In this document: positions 18,686 to 64,000 of the stretch, piece by piece
Position numbering within the stretch: position 1 is the stretch's first letter
How the letters are laid out: each line of letters opens with the position of its first letter
Source of the DNA: a virus
Strand: one strand, 5' to 3'
DNA: 64,000 bases
Virus record (IMG/VR): IMGVR_UViG_3300020187_000012
Span: 1 to 64,000 of that record
The notes under the pieces: model-generated
Database searches by the model: none
The model's input: the letters and a program-made list of their open reading frames with translations, nothing else
Told to the model about the DNA's origin: nothing
Position numbers and translations under genes: made by a program

Positions 18686-19123
18686 ATGACAAATTTAAAA
18701 TTTAACGCAAGCGAGGTAACTTGTAACGGTAACATTGGTGGTAGCGCTTTGATTCTTAATGATGATAATAAAGCTAAAATTAAAGCATTTATGATGACTC
18801 ATTTCATGATGACTGACCGTCGAACTATTTTACAAGAAATGCAAGACTCGGGCATGCTTGAAGATAGATGGACGGTCGGTTCACGTGTTAATAGTATTGA
18901 TACGGTGTATTGTCGTTTTACTAGTGGTCTTTTATCATACGCTCTTAAAAAGTTTGGTGTAAATGGCGGGACATATAAAGCTCAACGTGAGCTTTCTGAA
19001 ATGTGGATAAACGCTCAAATTAAAATGATGAGTGCTAAGGATATCATTATTGTATTAGAAAAAGCATTGGCCGATTGTGCACGTGCTGATTACTATTACA
19101 CTTATGAAAAAGACTGGTCATAA
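18686..19123 (+). CDS. hypothetical protein
   Basis: A 145-residue Met-rich, mainly helical protein. A helix with MMTHFMMTDRRTILQEM is followed by RFTSGLLSYALKKFG and a C-terminal segment ending DYYYTYEKDWS. No known family. It is spaced 1 nt from the preceding gene and overlaps the following start by one base. Confidence 0.72.
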   Translation: MTNLKFNASEVTCNGNIGGSALILNDDNKAKIKAFMMTHFMMTDRRTILQEMQDSGMLEDRWTVGSRVNSIDTVYCRFTSGLLSYALKKFGVNGGTYKAQRELSEMWINAQIKMMSAKDIIIVLEKALADCARADYYYTYEKDWS

Positions 19124-19350
19124 TGCAACTCGATAGACATCGACTTGAAAGATTACAGGACGAGCGGCATTGCGTAGATATTGACACGTCTGATGTTTAC
19201 TTTATTGTAGACTTACAAATTGTCAATGAAGAGATTTGGGTGGTAACTAATACTAAGGTATTTAAAGACACTCAAGTACTTACACTACAAGAAGCATCAG
19301 ATGCCGAACGTGAATTTATACGAATGCGAAAAGAAAATAACATTGGATAA
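19123..19350 (+). CDS. hypothetical protein
   Basis: A 75-residue charged protein (MQLDRHRLERLQDERH start), with a central beta-hairpin and a C-terminal helix. Unknown function. It is separated by one base from the UV endonuclease gene, so co-expression is likely. Confidence 0.68.
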   Translation: MQLDRHRLERLQDERHCVDIDTSDVYFIVDLQIVNEEIWVVTNTKVFKDTQVLTLQEASDAEREFIRMRKENNIG

Positions 19351-20495: not shown

Positions 20496-20846
20496 ATGAA
20501 ACACGTCAAAGCCTTTGAATCATTTATTTCTGTAAATGAAAAGTACATTATGTCCGACTTGGAAAATGAGTTAGGTATCGTACTAGACCTATGGGATAAT
20601 GGTGACCACTTAGAATTAGGTAAAATTGAAGTTCCTAAAAGGTTAAGGGGTTCTGGTGTAGGGACTGAAGCGATGGAACGTATTATTGCGTTTGCAGACA
20701 AAGAGGGTAAAGACATTAGACTCACACCATCAAAAGATTTTGGTGCATCTTCTGTAGCTAGACTTGAAAAGTTCTATAAAGGTTTTGACTTTGTTAAGAA
20801 TAAAGATTTAAAGTATAAGGACACTATGGTCCGCTATGCTAAATAA
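20496..20846 (+). CDS. GNAT acetyltransferase with capsid-targeting-like N-terminus
   Basis: A 116-residue protein. Residues 1-15 (MKHVKAFESFISVNE) form the shared tag seen in this cluster, with a possible VNE cleavage site; the remainder is a compact GNAT fold with the acetyl-CoA loop RGSGVGTEA at 51-59 and a C-terminal LEKFYKGFDFV. T4 internal proteins carry a similar N-terminal peptide that is removed by the prohead protease. If this one is packaged, it could acetylate a host target after injection; that is inference. First gene after a strong terminator. Confidence 0.8.
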   Translation: MKHVKAFESFISVNEKYIMSDLENELGIVLDLWDNGDHLELGKIEVPKRLRGSGVGTEAMERIIAFADKEGKDIRLTPSKDFGASSVARLEKFYKGFDFVKNKDLKYKDTMVRYAK

Positions 20847-20847
20847 C

Positions 20848-21546
20848 ATGAATAACATATTTAATTTTACAGATTTTGTTAATGAGGGTAGAAGCTCTTA
20901 TGATAGTATTGCATCTAAACTAGTTAAGCACACTTTTAAGAAGTGGGTGAACGGTTATAAAGGTGGTGAAGCTACACTTAACTTTACAGAAAGCTTAGTT
21001 TTAAACAGACTAGAATTTGATGTTGATTTCAACCTACATGTTACCAAGCGTGTTAAAGGTTTTGAAATACTTAATAGCACAGGTGCCGATTCAAGAACAA
21101 CTGATGATGAAGGTGACGAGCAAGACCCGTATATTATTATAGACTTCGCTGTTAATCCTGATTGGATTCCCGGTGAATGGTCTACTATTTATTTTTATTT
21201 AGCAGATGTTGTAAGACATGAGATTGAACATATCACACAAGGCGGTGAGGCTATTGGTAATTACAGAATGGGTAAACCAAATGAAGATGATGGTATGTTA
21301 AGACAAATGATTAAGATTGGTCTATTACCAAAAGCACAATATTTCATGCTACCTAAAGAGGTTGATGCAAACATACAGGGTCTTAGATATGAGGCTAAAA
21401 AAAGAAAAGAGTCGATGGCCGATGCTGTTAATAGATATCTAGACACGCAAGAACAATCTGGTGAAATAAATGGAAAAGAGCGTGAAGAAATTCTTACACT
21501 TTGGAAAAGACGTGCAAAACAAATAGGAGGTATACCTACATTTTAA
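20848..21546 (+). CDS. zincin metalloprotease with capsid-targeting-like N-terminus
   Basis: A 232-residue protein. The tag is MNNIFNFTDFVNEG, with VNE as the possible cleavage site. The zinc-binding motif HEIEH is at 124-128, followed about 40 residues later by LPKEVDA, where Glu171 is the likely third ligand. A 12-nt longer start exists at 20836, but the start at 20848 directly after the previous stop gives the tag at the N-terminus. Acting as a packaged, injected protease, or in prohead maturation, are both possible. It is not the T4 gp21 (serine) type. Confidence 0.78.
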   Translation: MNNIFNFTDFVNEGRSSYDSIASKLVKHTFKKWVNGYKGGEATLNFTESLVLNRLEFDVDFNLHVTKRVKGFEILNSTGADSRTTDDEGDEQDPYIIIDFAVNPDWIPGEWSTIYFYLADVVRHEIEHITQGGEAIGNYRMGKPNEDDGMLRQMIKIGLLPKAQYFMLPKEVDANIQGLRYEAKKRKESMADAVNRYLDTQEQSGEINGKEREEILTLWKRRAKQIGGIPTF

Positions 21547-21550
21547 AATT

Positions 21551-22570
21551 ATGAAACATTTAAAACTATACGAAGATTTTATTAATGAAGCAAGGCCTGA
21601 GTTCCATGATTCAGATGCACCAGATGCATATGGTAGATTCAGGGACTTAAGCGTTAAGGATTTAGCTAAGTGGTTAATTGATACACGTAACGGTGACGTT
21701 AAAAAGATTTCATCTTCACTTACACAACAAATTGTATTCAATAGAAATGATGACCCTGAATATGCTACTAAGATGGAAAAAACACGTAAAGAGGTTTATA
21801 AGCAACTTGATAGAGAAGACTTATTAGAAGGTGATGCTAAACCAGGTCCGGACAAATATATGACTGGGCTTGATAAAGAAGACGAAACCGATAAAGAAGA
21901 TCAAATCAAAAAGCAGCGTGAAATGGATGATGATGATTCATCAGCTTATAAAGAAATGCCAGGTGACGAAGAGGCTAGAGAGAAGGGTCAAGTTAAAACA
22001 TCTAAGCATGTTAAGAAATACCATGAGCTTTATGGTGACGAAAAGAACGAATCAATTATAATTGAAGCATCTAAAATTGCATGTCTAGAATGTGATGAGG
22101 TTAATACTGCTAAAGCTTGGGCTAAAAACAATGACGTATGTCCTTCATGTAATGATTCAACAAATGGTGTTTCTGAAGCTGAACTTGTAGGTGAATGTTG
22201 GGACGGTTACAGACAAGACGGTATGAAAACTAAAGGTGGTAAGCAGGTACCTAACTGTGTGCCAGTATCTGAAGTTAACGAAGAAAAAGCCGAAGGTGAT
22301 AGAAGTAAATTAGATAATGCTGATATCGAAACGGCACTTGCAAAAAAGTCTAAAGAAACTGGTGTACCTATTGGTATTATTAGAGTTGTAATGAGACGTG
22401 GAATGGCCGCGTGGAAAACAGGTCATAGGCCGGGTGCGGGTCAAGAGCAATGGGGATACGCTAGAGTTAATGCATTTCTTACTAAAGGCGCTGGTACTTG
22501 GGGTGATGCTGATAAAGACCTTGCTAAAGAAGTTAGAGACGGTGGACATGATAAAAAACTTAAATCTTAA
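21551..22570 (+). CDS. tagged virion-associated protein with DUF5824-like domain
   Basis: A 339-residue modular protein. Residues 1-13 (MKHLKLYEDFINE) are the best match to the T4 capsid-targeting peptide. A long acidic linker (about 88-145) follows, then an IIIEA site (169-173) resembling a second prohead-protease site, then two C-x-x-C knuckles (178/181 and 197/200), a repeat-like GGKQVPNCVPVSE, and a C-terminal domain (about 262-320) with RRGMAAWKTGHRPGA, the DUF5824 signature known from T4-like marine phages. Likely processed during capsid maturation. Overlaps the next gene by one base. Confidence 0.78.
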   Translation: MKHLKLYEDFINEARPEFHDSDAPDAYGRFRDLSVKDLAKWLIDTRNGDVKKISSSLTQQIVFNRNDDPEYATKMEKTRKEVYKQLDREDLLEGDAKPGPDKYMTGLDKEDETDKEDQIKKQREMDDDDSSAYKEMPGDEEAREKGQVKTSKHVKKYHELYGDEKNESIIIEASKIACLECDEVNTAKAWAKNNDVCPSCNDSTNGVSEAELVGECWDGYRQDGMKTKGGKQVPNCVPVSEVNEEKAEGDRSKLDNADIETALAKKSKETGVPIGIIRVVMRRGMAAWKTGHRPGAGQEQWGYARVNAFLTKGAGTWGDADKDLAKEVRDGGHDKKLKS

Positions 22571-23160
22571 TGAAGCATATAAAATTATTTGAGCAGTTTG
22601 AGCTTAATCCTTTATACGAGGAGATTGATGCGATTATGGGTGGTGGTCTCACAGACATTGAAATACAAGGTATGCTTGATGAGGGTTTATTCTCATGGTT
22701 AGGTTCTTTATTTTCAAACCCAAAAAAGAAACGTGAGTTAGATAAACTTGCACAACAGCTTACTGAGGTTAGAATTAATATTGCTAAGGTTAATATTGAA
22801 GCTGAAAACATTGAAGCGTTTGAAGAAGAGTTAGAAAGTAAAGTTGATATGTATGCTGATACAGTATCTGCTAAAGATATAAAGTCAAACACAAAGAAAA
22901 CTTCAATGACTGACCTTAAAGGTAAGCAACTACAAGAACTTGAAGCTGATATTGTAACTAGAATGGACATCATTGGTGAAGAGAATGACAAGCTTAAAAC
23001 TTATGTTAATAAAGTAAAGCTTAATTCTAGAATACAATCAACTGAAAAAATTATGCGTATGGCAGACGGTCAAATTAAAAAAGTACTTTCTAAAATGGCG
23101 ATGCAAGATAAAAAGAAAGATAGAGAACTAACAAAAGAACTTAAGGTTCAAATGAATTAA
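22570..23160 (+). CDS. tagged coiled-coil protein
   Basis: A 196-residue protein. It begins MKHIKLFEQFELN, matching the cluster tag, with candidate cleavage sites LYE (16-18) and LDE near 36-38. A hydrophobic GLFSWLGSLFSN segment follows, and the remainder is a long basic/acidic coiled coil (about 55-196). Could be a prohead core or internal protein. No enzymatic motif. Confidence 0.75.
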   Translation: MKHIKLFEQFELNPLYEEIDAIMGGGLTDIEIQGMLDEGLFSWLGSLFSNPKKKRELDKLAQQLTEVRINIAKVNIEAENIEAFEEELESKVDMYADTVSAKDIKSNTKKTSMTDLKGKQLQELEADIVTRMDIIGEENDKLKTYVNKVKLNSRIQSTEKIMRMADGQIKKVLSKMAMQDKKKDRELTKELKVQMN

Positions 23161-23163
23161 ATT

Positions 23164-23394
23164 ATGAAAAGAGTAAGATTATTCGAAGCTTTTACGAAAA
23201 GCCAAGGTGAAGAGATTAGCAAAGATCAATTTAAGAATATTGCTAAGGGTTCAAACGTTACATATATGGGTGATGATTTTGAAGTTGCAGAGTCAGACGA
23301 TACACTTCTAATATTAAAGCATATAAAGTCTGGTAAAAAGATTCATGTTAATTACAATATGTTCAATAAAAAAGGTGTTATTTCATCTAAATAA
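23164..23394 (+). CDS. small tagged protein
   Basis: A 76-residue basic protein starting MKRVRLFEAFTKS, the cluster tag, followed by a small beta-rich domain (GSNVTYMGDDFEV, then LLILKHIKSGKKIHV) that looks SH3-like. Likely another internal virion protein. The gene is 3 nt after its neighbour. Confidence 0.7.
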   Translation: MKRVRLFEAFTKSQGEEISKDQFKNIAKGSNVTYMGDDFEVAESDDTLLILKHIKSGKKIHVNYNMFNKKGVISSK

Positions 23395-23423
23395 AATTAA
23401 AAAACAAATAAATATCTTTACAA

Positions 23424-23432
23424 GATATATAA
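23424..23432 (+). promoter_or_regulatory. GATATATAA late-boundary motif
   Basis: Exact GATATATAA, 14 nt before the ATG of the small membrane protein. Confidence 0.45.
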
Positions 23433-23446
23433 ATAAATAAAATATT

Positions 23447-23638
23447 ATGTATTTTTTAATTATTACATTAACGATTGCCTCAGTTTTATTCATTGATTAT
23501 AAATTTATTAAATCAAAAAAAACTAAAACAGTTGGTACGTCTAAAGACAAGGTTATCGTTGTGGATAGAAGGCCTACTAATATTTCGGTTAACAGAATTA
23601 CTGATAATATAATTCCCACTAAGGAAGAAATGGACTAA
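23447..23638 (+). CDS. small single-pass membrane protein
   Basis: A 63-residue protein with one N-terminal hydrophobic helix (MYFLIITLTIASVLFIDY, about 1-18) and a basic then polar tail, so probably N-out or signal-anchored with a cytoplasmic or periplasmic tail. It lies within the tagged cluster but lacks the tag. Function unknown. Confidence 0.7.
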   Translation: MYFLIITLTIASVLFIDYKFIKSKKTKTVGTSKDKVIVVDRRPTNISVNRITDNIIPTKEEMD

Positions 23639-23648
23639 AATATTATTA

Positions 23649-23657
23649 GATATATAA
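23649..23657 (+). promoter_or_regulatory. GATATATAA late-boundary motif
   Basis: Exact GATATATAA, 20 nt before the ATG of the acidic scaffold-like gene. Confidence 0.5.
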
Positions 23658-23677
23658 TAAAATAATAACATATTAAA

Positions 23678-24349
23678 ATGGCTAAATTAAAATCATTCGA
23701 AGAGTACGTTGCTGACATTGACACGGCTGAAGAAATCGAAAACACAGAAGTTGAAATGGGTGAACCTATGGAAGCGGAAGGTGAAGAAGAAGTTGTTACA
23801 GACGAACAAGGTGAAGATAACGTTGAAGTAAAAGACAATGTTGAAGGTGAAGAAGCTGGTGAAGAAGCTGAAGAACTTGAAGCAGACACTAAAGAAGTTT
23901 CATCTGAAGAAGACAAAGGTATTGTAGATTCAGCTGATGATGAAGTACCATCTGAAGAAGAAGCTATGACTGAATCTGAGGATTCTGACGACGAAGATGA
24001 AGACGATTCTGACGACGAAGATGAAGACGATTCTGACGATGGAGATTCTGTAGAAGTTGTAGCAGTTGCTGAAATGCTTAAAGAGGCATACAAGGCTTGT
24101 AAAAACGAAGCTAAAGTTTGGGAAGAAGATATGCACGATGAGCATACTATTGAATCTTACCTAAAAGAAAATGCGGCATTAGTTGCTATGATGGCAGTTA
24201 ATACATTGAAAGAAATGAAAGAAGACATGACCCTTGAAATGTACGAGGCTACATGTAATGAATTAAAAGAATCTTACGCTAAGAAGATTGACGAGATGAA
24301 AGAAGCTTGGTCTGCTGAAGGTGAAGAGGTTGAAAGCGACGAAGAGTAA
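23678..24349 (+). CDS. highly acidic prohead-core-like protein
   Basis: A 223-residue protein, extremely rich in Glu and Asp, beginning with the tag-like MAKLKSFEEYVAD. Residues about 16-128 are a low-complexity acidic segment containing repeated DSDDEDED units; residues 128-218 form an alpha-helical domain. T4 core proteins gp67/gp68 and internal proteins are small, charged and cleaved by the prohead protease; this is the likely class, but no sequence family is clear. Flanked by a late-type motif and a terminator, so probably strongly expressed alone. Confidence 0.72.
   Translation: MAKLKSFEEYVADIDTAEEIENTEVEMGEPMEAEGEEEVVTDEQGEDNVEVKDNVEGEEAGEEAEELEADTKEVSSEEDKGIVDSADDEVPSEEEAMTESEDSDDEDEDDSDDEDEDDSDDGDSVEVVAVAEMLKEAYKACKNEAKVWEEDMHDEHTIESYLKENAALVAMMAVNTLKEMKEDMTLEMYEATCNELKESYAKKIDEMKEAWSAEGEEVESDEE
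23981..24040. repeat. 24-bp tandem repeat in coding sequence
   Basis: Two perfect 24-bp units (23981-24004 and 24005-24028) plus a partial third (24029-24040) encoding Asp/Glu/Ser repeats in the acidic protein. Likely length-variable by slippage. Confidence 0.85.
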
Positions 24350-58288: not shown

Positions 58289-58657
58289 ATGAAAACATTT
58301 TTAACATACTTAGAAGAGCAAAATGTCACAGAGGCTGATATCAATGCTATTAACGAATCTTTAAATCAAGAGTGGACACCAGAGCTTGAAGAAAGAATTG
58401 ATGAAGCTGTTGATGCTTTTTTAATAGAGTATACAAATGAAGATGGTACTTACAATATTGATAAACTTAACAATGAAATTACTAATGAAGGTTTATTAGG
58501 TTCTATTATAGGTGGTCTTACAGGGTTTGCTTTAGGTAAATCAGTTGGTAAGATTGTCGCTAAAGTACTGGGTATTGAAAAAGGCGTGTTCTATGATTTA
58601 TTAACTTCTAGATTAGTAGGTGCTGCGTTAGGTGCTTCACTGGGTAAAAAACTTTAA
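58289..58657 (+). CDS. tagged small protein with glycine-zipper segment
   Basis: A 122-residue protein beginning MKTFLTYLEEQNVTEA, resembling the capsid-targeting tag with VTE as cleavage site. Acidic helical middle, then a glycine-zipper membrane-active segment (GLLGSIIGGLTGFALGKSVG) and a second Gly/Ala-rich helix at the end. A packaged, membrane-interacting protein is plausible. The stop lies just before the RuvC-like gene. Confidence 0.65.
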   Translation: MKTFLTYLEEQNVTEADINAINESLNQEWTPELEERIDEAVDAFLIEYTNEDGTYNIDKLNNEITNEGLLGSIIGGLTGFALGKSVGKIVAKVLGIEKGVFYDLLTSRLVGAALGASLGKKL

Positions 58658-63900: not shown

Positions 63901-64000
63901 ATGAAAAAGATTGAATCATTTAAAAGTTTTTCTCAATTACAAAATGAAATCAGAGAAGAGGCTAGATTAAAAGAAGTTGCATCTAAAAGAGACGCTACAG
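63901..64000 (+). CDS. tagged protein, truncated by the window end
   Basis: The first 33 codons begin MKKIESFKSFSQLQNE and continue into a charged helix. The start matches the tag of the 20.5-24.4 kb cluster (K-x-[FY]-x-x-F, then a possible LQNE cleavage site). It is preceded by a GATATATAA motif. The rest is outside the window. Confidence 0.65.
   Translation, partial: MKKIESFKSFSQLQNEIREEARLKEVASKRDAT

Follow-up and report, generated by a model that had tools for sequence, protein, structure and literature searches.

Why should neighbouring phage genes that code for unrelated proteins open with one and the same short peptide? This question is raised by six genes at 20496–24349 of the IMG/VR virus record IMGVR_UViG_3300020187_000012. 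The window, that is, the whole stretch of 64,000 nucleotides that was analysed, corresponds to bases 1–64000 of this 125,503-base record. All positions are numbered along the record, the part beyond the window was read as loci L005–L008, and genes are named by their first base. All six proteins begin with an aromatic-x-x-aromatic peptide, henceforth called the tag; genes and peptides match those listed in the initial annotation, which had interpreted the peptide as a portable address for cargo of the phage head. With a probability of about 0.8, we regard it as a capsid-targeting sequence of the T4 type, whose cargo would be loaded, cut and injected by the steps proposed below.

The tag of the window genes

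The motif [FY]xx[FY] lies near the N-terminus of all six proteins; its aromatic residues correspond to Y4 and F7, the targeting positions of the T4 internal protein IPIII. According to IPIII genetics, targeting depends mainly on residues 4 and 7 and processing on residues 8 and 10 (PMC9026906), which are Y, F, I and E. The tag of 21551 contains the same residues at identical spacing (Y7, F10, I11, E13). The presumed cleavage triplet VNE or INE, which had been said to follow the tag in many of the genes, is in register in two of them: the sites FVNE↓G of 20848 and FINE↓A of 21551 come immediately after the tag. It is shifted by two residues in 20496 (FIS-VNE↓K), and in 22570 a possible LYE↓E (residue 17) comes four residues past the tag. 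No such triplet follows in the other two; there is no [LIV]xE near the tag of 23164 (FTKSQGEE), and 23678 reads VAD, with an Asp rather than a Glu at the cleavage position. Because the exchange of Glu for Asp in T4 IPIII blocks processing but not targeting, the 23678 protein may be carried uncut.

The start of the second gene is the ATG of MNNIFNFTDF at 20848, which lies within a longer open reading frame beginning at 20836. In the HExxH protein encoded there, F10, E13, G14 and R15 are invariant across 12 homologs; in its predicted structure residues 1–15 have a predicted local distance difference test score (pLDDT) below 50, and the body is folded. Among the domains initially assigned to the bodies behind the tags, GNAT and DUF5824 were recovered with Pfam, the zincin is reduced to its HExxH motif, and the SH3-like domain was unconfirmed. 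A fold search with the HExxH protein gave no PDB match; the best viral match was the uncharacterised A0A6J5SV68 (E 9.5e-11). The GNAT body occurs in three arrangements: tagged, set apart from the tag by other sequence, and untagged. Orthologs of 20496 include a FINE↓G form, a form in which a zinc ribbon separates the GNAT domain from the tag, and a form without tag. The module encoded by 23164 recurs in the related locus L204, where it forms the N-terminal part of a tagged protein of 561 aa.

Occurrence in the genome, in related phages and in T4

Two additional genes of the window that had been proposed to be tagged are real: orthologs of 58289 keep the tag (MKTYNDFIKE, MKTYNEFIVE, MKTFNDYLVE), and 63901 contains its aromatic half. 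A search of the entire record for more added about seven outside the window (65794, 66109, 66965, 68254, 70382, 95664 and 99962). A second and larger tagged cluster, consisting of 63901, 65794, 66109, 66965, 68254 and 70382, is located right past the window. The tag sits on at least a dozen (about 12–15) unrelated proteins in one genome.

A profile of 11 columns was derived from 197 distinct tags of relatives, with the phage itself excluded. In the own genome it matched nine N-termini at 10 bits or more, compared to 0.13 expected from internal sequence; chance likeness of the N-termini is therefore excluded. In 160 related loci with 3071 genes in total, a match near the start was found for 377 genes, as opposed to 5–18 at offsets of 20–100 residues. 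These loci had been retrieved with two tagged queries, so that counts in whole genomes are fairer; the records are fragments, and open reading frames were called in a simple manner. Five related genomes contained 7–13 matches each at 8 bits (0.5–0.75 expected), and the more distant record G013 contained two. Applied to lambda and 50 kb of N4, the profile gave a top score no higher than -0.3. Recent duplication of gene starts was discarded as an explanation: the tags share codons at 97 of 175 identical residues, and 98.4 are expected from codon usage, so that they are not recent DNA copies. Among 103 distinct N-termini of relatives that contain the aromatic half, [LIV]xE follows immediately in 71 and after 1–7 residues in 11, and is absent within 12 residues in 21.

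When 150 kb of T4 were searched at 8 bits or more, the profile of the relatives retrieved only IPII and IPIII (both MKTYQEFIAE) and gp61.1 (MKTFKEFIKE), with 24 bits each. In the T4 capsid protein gp23, the Glu of FGSFLTE↓A is residue 65, in agreement with a propeptide of 65 residues (PMC5694885). The small, uncharacterised gp61.1 (T4 record 18966–19130) has the full capsid-targeting motif and resembles gp23 just past FLTE↓A; the portions of the T4 literature that were queried for gp61.1 do not mention it.

The head module and the scaffold repeats

The phage is a marine T4-type phage, and its record contains a T4 head module with gp20, a gene at the gp67 position, gp21, scaffold and gp23 (Table 1). 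The gp21-type protease, for which a genome search had been recommended, is of the S77 type and forms a single fusion protein with a long scaffold. An S77 protease was also found in 12 of the 19 related records, which include fragments. The protease-scaffold protein contains eight YxxY/H[LIV]xE units, one of which reads YTEYIAE, and most of them follow one another at a distance of 14 residues; the number is 6–10 in five relatives and 0.08 in shuffled sequences. The repeat motif YxxY[LIV]AE is that of the tag, and in T4 gp22 no such array was seen by eye. The match between the tag and one scaffold unit suggests how cargo might be recruited and why one protease would treat both; it suggests that the tag docks as a scaffold repeat would. 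A DUF3008 protein (73625–74308, L005:10125–10808) includes MLGGMGDVSLPNG, which resembles the MMLKGMGNVSLPNG found close to the N-terminus of the phage's own capsid protein.

By their capsid protein, the closest phages are a 462-kb uncultured phage, the Prevotella Lak phages and Tenacibaculum phage PTm1, and the HExxH module was also found in a cultured Flavobacterium phage. Judging from the nearest named phages, a host among the Bacteroidota is likely. Relatives of the capsid protein were sought in genome contigs in search of the host and none was found; no close match at the DNA level was found among phages. The G+C content of the record is 34%, and nearly all genes are on the + strand.

Table 1. 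Tagged genes and head genes of the record. The arrow marks the cleavage-type position; bits refer to the profile.
Feature	Position	Strand	Tag or evidence
Tagged GNAT-like protein, 116 aa	20496..20846	+	MKHVKAFESFISVNE at 20496-20540; PF00583, 5.2e-05
Tagged HExxH protein, 232 aa	20848..21546	+	MNNIFNFTDFVNE↓GR at 20848-20886
Tagged DUF5824 protein, 339 aa	21551..22570	+	MKHLKLYEDFINE↓A at 21551-21589; PF19141, 1.6e-17
Tagged predicted coiled-coil protein, 196 aa	22570..23160	+	MKHIKLFEQF at 22570-22599
Tagged 76-aa protein	23164..23394	+	MKRVRLFEAF at 23164-23193
Tagged acidic protein, 223 aa	23678..24349	+	MAKLKSFEEYVAD at 23678-23716
Tagged protein, 122 aa	58289..58657	+	MKTFLTYLEE at 58289-58318; 18.9 bits
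609-aa protein, start	63901..64000 (gene end at record 65730)	+	MKKIESFKSF; many internal [LIV]xE sites
Tagged gene	65794		MKHIKLFEAFLSE↓G
Tagged gene	66109		MKKVRLFESFIGE↓A
Tagged gene	66965		MKLLHTYKEFLFE↓K
Tagged gene	68254		MKHIKLYEQFLNE↓S
Tagged 1075-aa protein	70382		
T4-type portal gp20	94046-95647		7.8e-67
Small tagged gene at gp67 position, between gp20 and protease	95664-95996		
S77 (gp21-type) protease fused to long scaffold	96060-98207		PF03420, E 9.1e-13
gp23 capsid protein	98351-99835		1.2e-43
Tagged gene	99962		SFDMFINE↓R

The proteins behind the tag

In the relatives, the bodies behind the tag form 88 clusters, 56 of which are singletons. The consensus of 76 representatives is MKxxKLFExFxNE, at a mean column identity of 6%. 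Their cargo includes DUF6267, DUF5824, AAA/zeta-type, glycosyltransferase, 2-oxoglutarate (2OG) oxygenase, GNAT and 2H phosphoesterase proteins. The 2H phosphoesterase, a tagged 181-aa protein of a related locus (L099:9168–9713, MKAVKLFEEFILE↓K), matches the anti-CBASS protein Acb1 (PF23474) with 1.5e-06, just over the cut-off. A PADLOC search with the tagged proteins returned single matches, most of them weak.

In the tagged 428-aa protein beyond the window (66965–68251, L005:3465–4751), KTDG, EGLVFK and KLTG resemble by eye the motifs of ligase-type nucleotidyltransferases; Pfam and PDB searches with this protein gave no clear match, and comparison with solved structures yielded none for it or for the GNAT protein. 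The untagged 612-aa protein of the cytidylyltransferase type (68523–70361, L005:5023–6861) contains the tag-like ILTFEQFISNI at its C-terminus. In the cultured Flavobacterium phage immuto (L251), two other N-termini, MKKS[QE]L..II[KR]E.L and (F)[DN]L[KR][KS]FL[VT]ENKLT.N..[IL]L, are shared by different genes (e.g. 13061, 13647, 23955, 34122 and 14573, 28398, 29399). Since one of these genes lies between portal and protease, a diverged tag is possible in this phage.

Tagged proteins in published virion proteomes

The profile was compared with the virion proteomes of cyanophages S-CREM2 and S-SZBM1 and of Morganella phage MP1. For S-CREM2, 52 products of 219 open reading frames (ORFs) have been detected in the virion by mass spectrometry (PMC10665884). 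The five top N-terminal scores belong to ORF154 (cytidylyltransferase), ORF14 (APH/ChoK-like kinase), ORF6 (SAM hydrolase) and the hypothetical proteins ORF13 and ORF136. All five are virion proteins (Fisher p = 6e-4, with a threshold that was set after the scores had been seen); the sixth-ranked ORF is absent from the virion. The Cas9-like virion protein ORF12 contains FASFMAEA near residue 19. The authors of that study state that true packaging of such enzymes needs further verification. Pooling the three proteomes and comparing with the detection rate of non-structural proteins gives p = 0.003, at thresholds chosen afterwards. The agreement between tag and virion constitutes support, not proof; it is found in S-CREM2, and the other two proteomes are weaker and mixed.

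Several results weigh against a T4-type targeting function. Only two of the six window tags have their site in the T4 register, and two have no [LIV]xE nearby. The profile was seeded with a regular expression (regex), which by itself favours F, F, [LIV] and E in the respective columns; the tests on T4 and S-CREM2 are independent of this. None of the three proteomes is from a close relative of the phage, and a looser regex lowers the significance in S-CREM2 to p = 0.057. The strong tags 191 and 192 of S-SZBM1 went undetected in a shallow proteome of 30 proteins, and the one enzyme that was detected has MRFRQFIIEA, which the profile misses as the motif comes too early; S-SZBM1 therefore did not confirm the result as a replicate. 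For MP1, one of two clear tags was detected (gp136, not gp135). At 10 bits or more, the pooled proteomes contain 5 of 10 tagged proteins compared to 2.07 expected (p = 0.037). The model of the 1075-aa protein is poor (mean pLDDT 53), and its junctions in low-confidence stretches carry little meaning. Finally, the putative docking of the tag on the scaffold is deduced from likeness between motifs.

Alternative explanations

The initial claim that unrelated cargo bears a T4-like capsid-targeting tag has good support from the protease and head module, the retrieval of IPII and IPIII, the agreement with S-CREM2 and the bodies found with and without tag; support from the two other proteomes is weaker. 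Two alternatives deny that the tagged proteins are cargo of the head. They could be parts of the prohead core that associate with the scaffold, like T4 gp67 and gp68, and are degraded once the head is built. A tagged gene does occupy the gp67 position (95664), the scaffold has the same motif, the acidic 23678 and the coiled-coil 22570 proteins look core-like, and internal cleavage sites could merely aid the clearing of pieces. We nevertheless consider a core function unlikely: a number of the bodies are enzymes or resemble them (GNAT, AAA/zeta-type, glycosyltransferase, 2H phosphoesterase), the bodies vary between phages (88 clusters), and the tagged enzymes of S-CREM2 persist in purified virions. 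The shared peptide could also be an address elsewhere than the head, for example a peptide for docking to an enzyme of the host or the phage in the cytoplasm, in which case the likeness to T4 would be convergence. Seven residues in loose positions make a short motif, several tags have no cleavage residue, and two proteomes do not clearly confirm presence in the virion. Yet a profile made from relatives retrieves from T4 nothing but known internal proteins (IPII and IPIII) and gp61.1, the phage's own scaffold is tiled with the same motif, a matching protease is present, and the top matches in S-CREM2 are all virion proteins, which makes an address outside the head highly improbable.

A separate question concerns the long tagged proteins. 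In relatives, segments of the 1075-aa, 609-aa and 284-aa proteins occur either as tagged genes of their own or within other long proteins; modules are exchanged between tagged genes and long multi-domain proteins. The 1075-aa protein contains the tag-like internal junctions VFEAFDSIDEELNE↓R and VYESFAAFESTNLNE↓A, the 284-aa protein contains LLESFNSTDDSEVNE↓S, and some internal junctions of relatives are a complete tag, MKNLKSLTDFSVNE↓A; the DUF5824 protein has an internal site NESIIIE↓A at residue 172. These could be ordinary multi-domain head proteins in which [LIV]xE marks linkers that stay uncut: cutting is predicted from sequence, the structural model is poor, with no convincing fold match for the 1075-aa protein, and the weak [LIV]xE motif is enriched about twofold in untagged long proteins as well (697 compared to 307 in shuffles). 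Uncut linkers are possible but, in our judgement, rather unlikely. In the phage's own tagged proteins, internal [LIV][NTSV]E[AGS] sites are enriched sixfold (17 compared to 2.8 in shuffles). With relatives included, a tag-like aromatic motif lies upstream of 42 of 197 internal [LIV]xE sites and of 17 of 297 controls (p = 3e-7). Module starts also coincide with sites in relatives: the HExxH module begins with GR after FVNE in the own gene and after VMAE within a 907-aa Flavobacterium phage protein, so the site travels with the module. Of the proteins outside the profile's selection, the protease-scaffold protein and members of the 63901 family are among those with the densest internal sites. 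The long proteins can be read as fused tagged genes in which the tag has turned into a processing site, that is, as predicted cargo polyproteins for the head protease. That the tag is one unit of the 14-residue scaffold repeat and long cargo a polyprotein from fused tagged genes, one motif building the core, loading cargo and marking cuts, is a tentative proposal to which we assign slightly less than even odds. The portions of open-access papers that were available contain no earlier account of the junctions or of the likeness between tag and scaffold.

Proposed mechanism and implications

Cargo loading can be envisaged in four steps, the first three of which build on the sequence patterns described above, from which we infer the biochemistry. 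During assembly of the prohead core, the [FY]xx[FY] half of the tag would bind the protease-fused scaffold, the tag acting as one free scaffold repeat. After closure of the shell, the S77 protease would, as in T4, cut past [LIV]-x-E, shred the scaffold and release the cargo from its tag. Long cargo (the 1075-aa, 609-aa and 284-aa proteins) would also be cut at its internal tag-like junctions, and the smaller modules could pass the portal more easily. By analogy, the modules might then be delivered into the host together with the DNA and be active ahead of any newly made phage protein, for example against early defence.

If this is right, the proteins that many uncultured T4-type phages carry in their heads can be catalogued from sequence, and proteins of unknown function can be assigned to a place (the head) and a time (entry). 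The presence of stray enzymes in virions of cyanophages would be explained, and candidates for early effectors and counter-defence proteins would become available, such as the Acb1-like tagged protein of a relative. The likeness between tag and scaffold repeat offers a testable answer to how tags of the T4 type are recognized.

Comparison with known systems

The closest parallel is the targeting sequence of T4 IPI–III and Alt, which is cut by gp21 (PMC9026906, PMC3012670, PMC12373910). Here as there, a short N-terminal peptide with aromatic residues three apart, followed in part of the tags by [LIV]-x-E, sits on unrelated proteins, and a gp21-type protease is encoded in the same genome; in T-even phages the tag is already known on at least 10 unrelated internal proteins (same papers). 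The phage differs from T4 in having about 12–15 tagged genes, whereas three were picked in T4, and in the enzymes and multi-module proteins among them, with tag-like junctions within the long proteins. It also has a protease-scaffold fusion whose repeats bear the tag motif, spacing variants of the tag, and tags without a cleavage site. Among the enzymes of cyanophage virions (PMC10665884, PMC9602691, PMC9146016), the tag motif is present in the cytidylyltransferases of both S-CREM2 and S-SZBM1 and in the kinase and the SAM hydrolase of S-CREM2; in the available portions of these papers, the presence of enzymes is not tied to a targeting sequence.

In phages of the phiKZ/SPN3US type, a relative of gp21 likewise processes many head proteins, including ejection proteins, behind a short x-x-E motif, and the propeptides are thought to target cargo (PMC5694885). 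Most of these propeptides exceed 100 residues and are cut after S/A-x-E, whereas the tag described here comprises 10–15 residues, with [LIV]-x-E where a site is present; long propeptides cut after S/A-x-E are not found among the window tags. For DarB of phage P1, an N-terminal stretch is sufficient to carry a reporter into the head; it is the one such protein reported, in a phage without a separate scaffolding system (PMC9024508). The polyvalent proteins of phages (PMC5512222) resemble the long tagged proteins in being multi-domain, in being thought to be packaged and injected, and in having been compared to polyproteins. Their domains are proposed to be freed by an embedded peptidase; Pfam found no peptidase domain in the 1075-aa or the 609-aa protein, and the poor model gave no fold match. 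In the phage described here, the proposed cutter is the head protease.

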